This document shows, piece after piece, positions 2,974 to 60,177 of a stretch of 64,000 nucleotides of DNA. The DNA is taken from the NCBI RefSeq assembly GCF_002214805.1, contig NZ_CP019914.1, positions 2,356,001 to 2,420,000 of the forward strand. Reading direction: 5' to 3'. Position 1 is the stretch's first letter, and each line of letters starts with the position of its first letter. A model generated the notes under the pieces. It did no database searches and had not been told where the DNA came from. It saw only the letters and a list, made by a program, of their open reading frames with translations. The position numbers and the translations under genes were made by a program. This stretch comes from Brachyspira hampsonii. GTDB taxonomy: Bacteria; Spirochaetota; Brachyspiria; Brachyspirales; Brachyspiraceae.

Positions 2974-3046
2974 TCCGAGATAGCTCAGTCGGTAGAGCAG
3001 GTGACTGTTAATCACCGGGTCGCAGGTTCGAGCCCTGTTCTCGGAG
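2974..3046 (+). tRNA. tRNA-Asn (GUU)
   Basis: It folds as a full cloverleaf. The acceptor arms are TCCGAGA/TCTCGGA, the anticodon stem is GGTGA/TCACC around the loop CTGTTAA (anticodon GTT), and the T arm is GCAGG-TTCGAGC-CCTGT. The discriminator is G46, followed by CA, so the 3' CCA is not fully encoded. The gene is a single-tRNA transcription unit with its own promoter and terminator. Confidence 0.96.
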
Positions 3047-31273: not shown

Positions 31274-31359
31274 CCCCGCCCTTTATATTTTTTACTTTTA
31301 TTAAACATTGAAACTTTTTTATTTTCTTAATTTATTTTAAAAAAGCATGCCCACCCAAG
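31274..31359 (+). repeat. C-box element A (single C-rich module)
   Basis: CCCCGCCC at 31274 and CCCACCC at 31350 are 76 bp apart, framed as TTTACATGCCCCGCCC and AAGCATGCCCACCCAAG. The DNA between is almost pure A/T. It lies in the 400-bp gap between the divergent nitroreductase and D12 methyltransferase genes; the rest of this gap is AT-rich and featureless to my eye. No GCACG module follows. Confidence 0.7.
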
Positions 31360-34635: not shown

Positions 34636-34833
34636 CCCCGCCCTTTTAATTTTATAATCATATTTGTAATGTTAATTTTATTTATATTTAAAACCTAAAC
34701 TGTAAAAGCACACCCGCCCAAGATTAAATTAAATTTTAGAATTTAATTTAACGCACGGTGAATAAAATTTTATTTATTGATAAGTTTAGAATTTATAACA
34801 GACTTTTTTATTATAGCCGGCTTCACGTGCGTT
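34636..34833 (+). repeat. C-box element B (C-rich module plus GCACG module)
   Basis: CCCCGCCC at 34636 and CCCGCCC at 34713 are 77 bp apart. Next, AACGCACG at 34750 and its inverted partner CGTGCGTT at 34826 follow, with 73 bp between GCACG and CGTGC starts. The gap from C-box 2 to GCACG is 34 bp. The element fills the ~390-bp space between convergent telA and the SNF symporter gene. Box sequences are shared with the copies at 45 and 60 kb, spacer sequences are not. Confidence 0.75.
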
Positions 34834-41680: not shown

Positions 41681-42112
41681 ATGACTAAAAAATTATTCGC
41701 TTTATTAATAACTTTAACTATAATTTCTACTTCAAGTGCTTTTGCTGATTTGGTAGTACCAGCTTCTTCACTTCCTCAGAGGGCTAGAAGTTTCATACAG
41801 CAAATTTATCCAAATGTACAAATATGGAAAGTAGAAAGAGATGACGGAAAATTTGAGGTAAAATTATCTAATGGTGCTAAAATAGATTTCTTATACAATG
41901 GCGATTGGCATAGCATAGACGGTGAGTATAATGCTGTACCTTTCTCTGCTTTACCTGCTAATATAGCCAGCACTATAAGAAACACTTATCCTCAGGCTGC
42001 TGTTATAGATGTAGAAAAAGAATGGGGTAATTACAAAGTAAAATTAAATAACTTTATGGAATTATTTATCTCTGCTAACGGACAGTTAATGGGACAGAAA
42101 TTTGATGACTGA
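41681..42112 (+). CDS. PepSY-like periplasmic protein
   Basis: The 143 residues have a classic signal peptide ending AFA (near residue 22). Two similar ~60-residue halves follow: LPQRARSFIQQIYPNVQIWKVERDDGKFEVKL and LPANIASTIRNTYPQAAVIDVEKEWGNYKVKL. Each is a PepSY-like (DUF2874) unit. Members are small periplasmic proteins, sometimes compared with protease or beta-lactamase inhibitors; the role is unknown. The gene has its own strong promoter and terminator, so it may be abundant. Confidence 0.85.
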   Translation: MTKKLFALLITLTIISTSSAFADLVVPASSLPQRARSFIQQIYPNVQIWKVERDDGKFEVKLSNGAKIDFLYNGDWHSIDGEYNAVPFSALPANIASTIRNTYPQAAVIDVEKEWGNYKVKLNNFMELFISANGQLMGQKFDD

Positions 42113-42185: not shown

Positions 42186-42230
42186 AAAGAGAGGGAGTTA
42201 AAAAATAGCTTCCTCTTTTTTTGTTTAAAT
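42186..42230 (+). terminator. Terminator of the PepSY-like gene
   Basis: AAGAGAGGGAG and CTTCCTCTTT pair (one G-T) around an AT loop, followed by a long T-run. Confidence 0.75.
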
Positions 42231-42266
42231 AAAAAAGCATCTATATATTTTTATAGTTTTATTCTG

Positions 42267-42283
42267 CCCGCCCACCCGCCCCC
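42267..42283 (-). other. Four-tract C-run / G-quadruplex motif
   Basis: The plus strand reads CCCGCCCACCCGCCCCC, so the minus strand has four G-tracts of three or more with single-base loops. In this AT-rich DNA the run is isolated. It lies between the PepSY-like terminator and the C45 hydrolase gene, 105 bp before the latter's ATG, and may relate to the C-rich boxes elsewhere in the window. Confidence 0.8.
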
Positions 42284-42388
42284 TTACTATATTTTTTAAT
42301 ACTTAAAAAAATTTTTTATTCATATTTACTTAAAATTTTTATTATGCTAGCCTTTGTATAAATATTATAATTATATTGGAGATATAAA

Positions 42389-43393
42389 ATGTATCATTCA
42401 AGATTTAAGGGCAGTCATTATGAAGCTGGATTTAAATATGGTAAATTGCTTTCTAAAAATAATATTAACCCATTAGAAAAAATTAAAATATCAAATGATA
42501 GAAAATATTTTGCTAATAAATGCATGCCAATATACAATCAATTTTTTCCTGAAATAATAGAAGAAATAAAAGGAATATCCGACGGACTAAATACAAATGA
42601 TAATATAAAAATAGATTATAAAAATATATGCGAATTTTTATTTACAATATATGCTTTTACTTTTGATAATAAATGTTCCTCTTTTGCTTTCAAAACAGAT
42701 AATGATATAATACTTGTCAAAAACAGTGATTTTTTAAAAGATATAAAAAATTATTGCGACAGTATGTATTATAAAATAAATAGTTCTTATTTATTTATTG
42801 GCAATACTACAGCATTTATAGAAATTGAAGATGGTATAAATGAAAAAGGACTTGCAGCAGCATTAACTTTTGTGTATCCCACAAAAATAGATTACGGATT
42901 CAATGCCGGAATGATAATAAGATATATTTTAGAGAAATGCTCTACTGTTGATGAGGCTTTAGAGTTTTTAAAAAATATTCCAATTTCATCTGCACAGAAT
43001 ATAATATTGGCAGATAGAAAAGGAAGTATTGCATTAATAGAATGTAATTGCAAAAAAGTAGAAATAATTAAAAATGATTATGTGTTTATATCAAATCATT
43101 TTGTAAGCAAGTCTATGAAAGAATATAATACTAATATTGAAGATGATATTTATTCTAATGAAAGATATATAACTATGGAAGATGCATTCAAAAATTATGA
43201 TTATGATTTAAATTTTGCAAAAAAACTTATTTCAGGAGAGTATGGATTTTTATGCCAATATGATAGAAAACTCAATTTTGATACTGTTTGGTCGGCAATA
43301 TATTCAATAAAAAACAAAAAAGTATATATAGCAGAAGGAAATCCGTCAAGAAAAAAATTCAAAGAGGATAATAGATTAAAATTTGATTATTGA
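42389..43393 (+). CDS. C45/linear amide C-N hydrolase family protein
   Basis: The 334-residue protein resembles acyl-CoA:6-aminopenicillanate acyltransferase-like and choloylglycine-type Ntn hydrolases. FKGSHYEAGFKYGKLL is the N-terminal family motif. The likely nucleophile is Cys96 in DNKCSSFAF, which is exposed after autocleavage in family members. KNSDFL and IEDGINEKGLAAALTFV complete the fold. The natural substrate is unknown (amides, peptides or N-acyl compounds). It has TTGGAG upstream and no signal peptide. Confidence 0.82.
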   Translation: MYHSRFKGSHYEAGFKYGKLLSKNNINPLEKIKISNDRKYFANKCMPIYNQFFPEIIEEIKGISDGLNTNDNIKIDYKNICEFLFTIYAFTFDNKCSSFAFKTDNDIILVKNSDFLKDIKNYCDSMYYKINSSYLFIGNTTAFIEIEDGINEKGLAAALTFVYPTKIDYGFNAGMIIRYILEKCSTVDEALEFLKNIPISSAQNIILADRKGSIALIECNCKKVEIIKNDYVFISNHFVSKSMKEYNTNIEDDIYSNERYITMEDAFKNYDYDLNFAKKLISGEYGFLCQYDRKLNFDTVWSAIYSIKNKKVYIAEGNPSRKKFKEDNRLKFDY

Positions 43394-44856: not shown

Positions 44857-45169
44857 GGGCGGGGATGCTTTTTCAAAGTAAGTTATGAAGTTAATTAAAA
44901 TTAGAATTTAAAAAATAGGCATCAAAGAATAAAGGGCGGGGTATGTAAATAGATTTTTTGCCTATTTTGATTCCCACCCTATAGGCTTTTTGAATTTATC
45001 TGTTATTTTTGTTATATATTATTTTAAAAATTTTTTCTGTAATTTTAGATGTCCACCCAAGAGTTTTTTAAATTTAGAATGAATACACCGCACGAAAAAT
45101 GAAATTATATATCTAGGTTCATTAATAATAACATGTTATTTATATATGAAATTTAATTAACCGTGCGTT
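44857..45169. repeat. C-box element C (two opposed C-rich modules plus GCACG module)
   Basis: Boxes in order: GGGCGGGG 44857, GGGCGGGG 44934 (a minus-strand module), CCCACCC 44973, TCCACCC 45052 (a plus-strand module), GCACG 45090, CGTGC 45162. Distances are 77, 39, 79, 38 and 72 bp between starts. The 340-bp gap between the convergent DUF4132 and SDR genes is almost entirely this element. ACACCGCACG and ACCGTGCGTT are the inverted arms. Confidence 0.75.
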
Positions 45170-59867: not shown

Positions 59868-60177
59868 CCCCGCCCTTTAGATTTTATAGCTAAATTTGTA
59901 TTTATAATTTAAATTATGTTTATTACTCCATTAGAAATTTCAGCACTCTCCCAAGTTGGTATTAGTTTAAAAATTTATTTAACGCACGGTTAGTTTAGCT
60001 ATAAATATAATTTAAATTGTATTATTAATTTATCTTTATTTTTTATTTTGCTTATCGTGCGTTGAACAGGTATTCATTTCTATAAAAAACTAGGGTGGGG
60101 GATATAGTTTCTGTATAGGCTTTAAAAAAGTAAAAGTTAAAATTTTATATAAAATCAATAAAGAAAAAAGGGTGGGG
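59868..60177. repeat. C-box element D (palindromic arrangement of C-rich and GCACG modules)
   Basis: Boxes in order: CCCCGCCC 59868, CTCTCCC 59946, GCACG 59984, CGTGC 60056, GGGTGGG 60093, GGGTGGGG 60170. The order is symmetric: spacings are 78, 38, 72, 37 and 77 bp between starts, with the left half mirrored by the right. It fills most of the ~400-bp gap between the SNF copy 2 gene and the next minus-strand gene end. Confidence 0.78.

Follow-up and report, generated by a model that had tools for sequence, protein, structure and literature searches.

REP elements are short dispersed intergenic repeats of bacteria that are moved by RAYT/Y1 transposases. Among repeats that can form G-quadruplexes, the GGGNATC repeats of Xanthomonas and Nostoc occur genome-wide, are over-represented in non-coding DNA and are not tied to surface-structure genes (PMC4692102). 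The pilE quadruplex of Neisseria gonorrhoeae has one functional copy and requires a small-RNA promoter and a particular orientation (PMC3547852, PMC4412290). Here we describe a G-quadruplex motif at positions 42267-42283 of a 64-kb stretch of DNA from the intestinal spirochaete Brachyspira hampsonii (the window: 64,000 nucleotides, contig NZ_CP019914.1, positions 2,356,001 to 2,420,000). Since it is one of about 20 scattered intergenic copies, the motif looks like part of a genus-specific repeat and not like a switch for the neighbouring hydrolase gene. More specifically, we read the site as one copy of a Brachyspira-specific, dispersed, insertion-like intergenic repeat that has spread as a non-autonomous sequence resembling miniature inverted-repeat transposable elements (MITEs), with a probability of about 0.6. 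The repeat has many copies with a common right flank, is placed only between genes, is nearly confined to the genus, and is present in some species and cleanly absent from others.

Exactly as the initial annotation had described, the minus strand of CCCGCCCACCCGCCCCC carries four G-tracts separated by one-base loops, a canonical intramolecular quadruplex motif (four runs of at least three G, joined by short loops, on a single strand). No other match with up to 3 mismatches exists in the window (shuffles expect 0.00), and the 17-mer occurs once in the whole 3.19-Mb genome (3,189,639 bp). It is also the only G3+N1-7 pattern on either strand of the window, compared with 0.017 expected per 64 kb in a Markov-1 simulation. 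The G4Hunter score of the 17 nt is 2.65, and the highest score of any 25-nt segment is found at the same site (1.84). Quadruplex folding of the G-strand is predicted, being favoured by the gquad-enabled RNA energy model only. Search of the whole window against Rfam at the gathering score gave no match at the motif, on which ground a known RNA family was rejected; the only match was a tRNA at 2974-3046. The motif is short, as would suit a chance G-rich stretch or an assembly artefact. We count this explanation as refuted by the low simulated expectation, by the 20 places with common flanks and by three other assemblies in which the tracts of the window locus are intact.

The motif had been described as isolated in AT-rich DNA. 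This is true within the window, where it is the sole pattern, but not within the genome (26% GC), where GGGYGGGYGGG cores are found at 20 distinct places. Four full tracts with one-base loops are present at 14 of them, and all 20 are intergenic, i.e. situated between predicted open reading frames (ORFs) of at least 70 codons. Relative to the G-strand, the 5' neighbouring gene lies on the same strand in 12 cases and on the opposite strand in 7 (one was not seen); for the 3' neighbour the corresponding counts are 8 and 12. Orientation is thus mixed overall, which argues against a role at the RNA level. Similarity extends beyond the tracts: a search with 42190-42388 returned dispersed partial matches in the same genome, for example at 2118259-2118329 (85%) and 2214999-2215074 (80%). 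A weak consensus is seen in the right flank of 57 non-redundant copies, approximately YAATTARATT with first an A-rich and then a T-rich stretch behind it, at about +28 to +37; the left flank has none. A box A[AT]TA[AG]AT (AWTARAT) just downstream of the tracts is found in 35 of 95 triple-box rows, compared with 0/95 and 1/95 in control windows; orthologues are among these rows, which are not independent of one another. The element is best read as a sequence of about 55-80 bp that would carry the one-base-loop quadruplex motif at one edge, with the AWTARAT box and then arms rich in A and in T behind it. It is not palindromic and its DNA fold has a z-score of 0.04; the mean z of right-flank folds is −0.31, no improvement on shuffled sequence. 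Terminator or hairpin identity was rejected on these z-scores and on the mixed orientation.

The genus set comprises 26 genomes, taken to be Brachyspira, to which the phylum sample adds 172 others. The core alone is present in 19 of the 26. The core combined with AWTARAT gives 51 matches in 18 Brachyspira genomes versus 2 matches in the 172 other genomes. It is important to note that backwards controls for GGGYGGG, GGGYGGGYGGG and GGGAGGG are uninformative because these patterns read identically backwards.

Comparison of orthologous sites gives the clearest view of presence and absence. At the his locus, between the GATase (hisH-like) and IGPD (hisB) genes, eight genomes hold the element with all tracts intact in segments of 88-91 bp, and in four (G005, G009, G002 and G018) the segment is 8-23 bp long without a G-tract. 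The element amounts to 65-83 bp of additional DNA, beginning with the first G or one base ahead of it. G017, with 59 bp lacking G-tracts, was excluded from the clean empty sites; G007 and G014 did not pass the anchor test and are outside the four counted, the gap in G007 being visible in the alignment. By eye, the his alignment has no obvious terminal inverted repeats or target duplication, and the exact ends are not fixed because the AT-rich flanks blur them. The window locus was found in B. hampsonii 30446, B. innocens ATCC 29796 and further Brachyspira records. Here the tracts are intact in four of eight species (G000, G004, G022 and G025) and broken in the other four (G005, G006, G021 and G023); in addition, G014 is without the element and still has the hydrolase gene. 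At a cation-efflux locus all tracts are kept in 10 of 11 aligned genomes (G023, L272, was left out, and for G004 the row is a partial match, L293). Only genomes with a match spanning the element were counted.

Compared with the own genome, changed G-tract cells amount to 0/91 at his, 6/140 at efflux and 25/98 at the window locus. Pooled over the three loci, the changes are 31/329 in tracts, 14/72 in loops, 75/600 in the left flank and 118/960 in the right flank. Constraint on the tracts is plausible at the his and efflux loci and is not seen at the window locus, where tracts change as frequently as the left flank. Free variation between strains with broken tracts had been named in the initial annotation as the observation that would speak against the motif. 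Half of this is seen, with tracts broken in four of eight and intact in the remaining four; all tract-loss counts are comparisons between species. The same numbers bear on a local regulatory quadruplex, in which folding of the template strand just upstream of the promoter would control the hydrolase gene. The position between a terminator and a conserved upstream block and the very high G4Hunter score agree with such a role. However, half of the species have lost the tracts and kept both the hydrolase gene and the block, tract changes match those of the left flank, the gene is present in G014 where the element is missing, and orientation to genes is mixed in the family. We consider local control highly improbable.

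We suggest that insertions dispersed the element, a probably non-autonomous, MITE-like sequence moved by some enzyme, and that the single-stranded G-strand may fold into a quadruplex, possibly the way in which the element is recognised. In the window, insertion would have placed the copy between the PepSY-like gene's terminator and the hydrolase promoter, and free decay in several species would have followed; such decay would mean that this copy has no essential local job. Several results weigh against our main reading. Neither an obvious target duplication nor a mobilising enzyme was found. A clean insertion is seen at one locus only (his); at the window locus it is supported by one empty genome (G014). 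As a control, the AWTARAT pattern read backwards still gives 16 matches, all of them in Brachyspira. The well-kept tracts at his and efflux hint at some function. Regarding the enzyme, the Y1 transposase (PF01797) is found in none of the 26 genus genomes, with 5 of 14 control genomes positive, and REP/RAYT identity was rejected for this reason. Transposase-family genes of PDDEXK_2 (PF12784) are numerous in most Brachyspira, being present in 25 of the 26 genomes with up to 40 matches in one genome. Their counts correlate with element copies (rho 0.69), yet G001 has 25 matches and no copies, which speaks against PDDEXK_2 as the mover.

The GGGYGGG box is not limited to this repeat: the genome has 506 GGGYGGG versus 37 GGGAGGG. 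Strict pairs of the form CTTGGGYGGG-N64-74-GGGYGGG number 117 in this genome; 23 of the 26 genus genomes have such pairs, with 1 backwards-control match across all 26. In 66 non-redundant copies of this paired element, the boxes lie 75-80 bp apart with CTT before box 1, CGTGCG stands 35-37 bp ahead of box 1 (45 occurrences) and an inverted box follows 28-41 bp after box 2 (22 occurrences). Sample for the comparison of boxes and their partners is biased toward loci chosen for holding a box. The paired element has no Rfam match in the window; it is also found within larger tandem units of about 345 bp. The motif had been likened to two such boxes (C-boxes) placed side by side, and the resemblance is supported. 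The further suggestion, that a fixed-spacing element has collapsed here into joined boxes, is very unlikely and was rejected on the flanks. In its favour are the box common to both, its excess over GGGAGGG, and the presence of the paired element in all 19 triple-box genomes with correlated counts (rho 0.78, which kinship alone could give). Against it, the left marks are missing (CTT in 1/95 triple-box rows, CGTGCG at about the expected distance in 1/95), the right flank differs and has its own consensus, and the his insert begins at the G-tracts. The flanks indicate that triple-box and paired repeats are different elements with a GGGYGGG box in common.

Another way to account for both repeats would be a protein, nucleoid-associated or regulatory, that reads double-stranded GGGYGGG in joined or spaced form, quadruplex potential being a by-product. 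The middle base is nearly always a pyrimidine, which quadruplex folding does not need, and the spacing of the paired boxes is fixed; both fit such a site. However, C-to-T change at CpG would yield the same pyrimidine pattern by descent. There is also no candidate protein, and the tracts decay at the window locus. A duplex binding site is in our opinion rather unlikely.

A tandem array of Serpulina_VSP (PF05540) surface-protein genes holds five of the 20 core places in its spacers. Each of the four full-length vsp genes has a coding-strand G-box 139-155 bp past its stop codon; two of these boxes have three tracts, one has four and one is degenerate. In the last spacer of the array a 238-bp unit is repeated in tandem about three times. 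Likewise, a four-tract copy lies 149 bp after the stop of a B. hampsonii vsp gene (G005; L160:2538). The simplest reading would be duplication of gene and spacer together. A reading that we consider quite unlikely is that GGGYGGG is a genus-wide half-quadruplex module, either joined (loops 1-1-1) or split (boxes 75-80 bp apart, which could close a quadruplex with a long central loop), and that the joined vsp boxes could seed recombination between the genes of the array, as the pilE quadruplex does in Neisseria. Copies with the vsp-spacer upstream sequence TTAAAAATGTTTGTTTAACTA, in L298 (around 2519371), L072 and L198, adjoin restriction-modification genes in three genomes (N6_Mtase/TaqI_C, Mrr_cat and Methylase_S).

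Gene context of the window locus is given in Table 1. The motif had been placed between a terminator and the gene of a C45 hydrolase, and this holds: it lies 46 bp past the terminator-like hairpin and 105 bp ahead of the start of the PF03417 (AAT) gene, a family which we take to correspond to peptidase family C45. The approximate extent of the repeat copy is based on dispersed partial matches over 42217-42300, on the family consensus and on the end GATGCTTTTTTAT, which is common to the his copy. The AT-rich block before the hydrolase gene is kept in all nine aligned genomes, including the repeat-less G014 and those with broken tracts, and is presumed to be the hydrolase promoter. By Pfam, this copy has no surface-antigen neighbour, the adjacent genes being those of PF11396 and PF03417. 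The spacer upstream of the hydrolase gene holds about 650 bp of extra DNA without G-boxes in G008 (L038), a paired-box element instead in G018 (L041), and a four-tract copy on the opposite strand in G009 (L049).

Table 1. Coordinates of the quadruplex motif, the repeat copy and associated features (window positions, except for the vsp array)
Feature	Position	Strand	Basis
Four G-tracts with one-pyrimidine loops, GGGGGCGGGTGGGCGGG	42267..42283	-	sequence; sole quadruplex pattern of window
Repeat copy, approximate extent: G-tracts, CAGAATAAAA, A/T arms ending near GATGCTTTTTT	42228..42284	-	ends inferred
PepSY-like secreted protein gene, upstream	41681..42112	+	PF11396, E 2.3e-26
Intrinsic-terminator-like hairpin after PepSY-like gene	42186..42220	+	scan: 1 found, 0.0 expected
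Conserved AT-rich block before hydrolase gene, presumed promoter, outside repeat	42305..42355	+	alignment
AAT-type hydrolase gene, downstream	42389..43393	+	PF03417, E 1.2e-43
Paired GGGYGGG boxes, 75-77 bp apart	31275-31356 (-), 34637-34719 (-), 44857-44940 (+), 60093-60176 (+)		window scan
Single GGGYGGG boxes	44973, 59869 (-)		partners with 1 and 2 mismatches
G-boxes of vsp array L297 (G000:C1:1445000-1459000)	4454, 6239, 7772, 10191, 10432, 10670	coding strand	

A literature search found no paper joining Brachyspira and G-quadruplex, subscription papers being largely outside its coverage. Wider term searches gave no description of this repeat among the matches listed, and the passages on repeats and intergenic DNA in the excerpts of Brachyspira genome papers do not mention it. 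A genus-specific G-tract repeat in a genome of such low GC content is a clean natural system for the role of bacterial intergenic quadruplexes, and occupied, broken and empty sites among close species are ready-made comparisons. The vsp copies would allow the role of quadruplexes at a spirochaete surface-antigen locus to be probed outside Borrelia.

The Brachyspira element is similar to REP elements in being short, dispersed, intergenic and bacterial, and differs from them in having no Y1 transposase in the genus and no stable hairpin. Mobile GC clusters of yeast mitochondria are likewise short GC-containing elements that spread between genes of an AT-rich genome, but they are palindromic (PMC4478555). 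With the pilE quadruplex (PMC3547852, PMC4412290) the element has in common a short G-rich intergenic segment of four tracts and, in the vsp copies, a place beside surface-protein genes; unlike pilE with its one functional copy, it has 20 dispersed copies in mixed orientation. The G-runs of Borrelia vls (PMC3585125) also belong to a spirochaete with an AT-rich genome and to a surface-antigen locus, whereas the Brachyspira tracts are intergenic and intramolecular by pattern. The Xanthomonas and Nostoc repeats (PMC4692102) are dispersed, mainly non-coding and prefer four tracts per site, and the many Brachyspira copies, all intergenic and mostly with four tracts, are of the same kind. However, those are heptamer repeats of the GGGNATC unit with NATC loops and a preferred ORF side, whereas the Brachyspira unit is GGGY. 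Its loops are single pyrimidines, about 40 bp of the flank are conserved, neither orientation is preferred, and sites are occupied in some species and empty in others.
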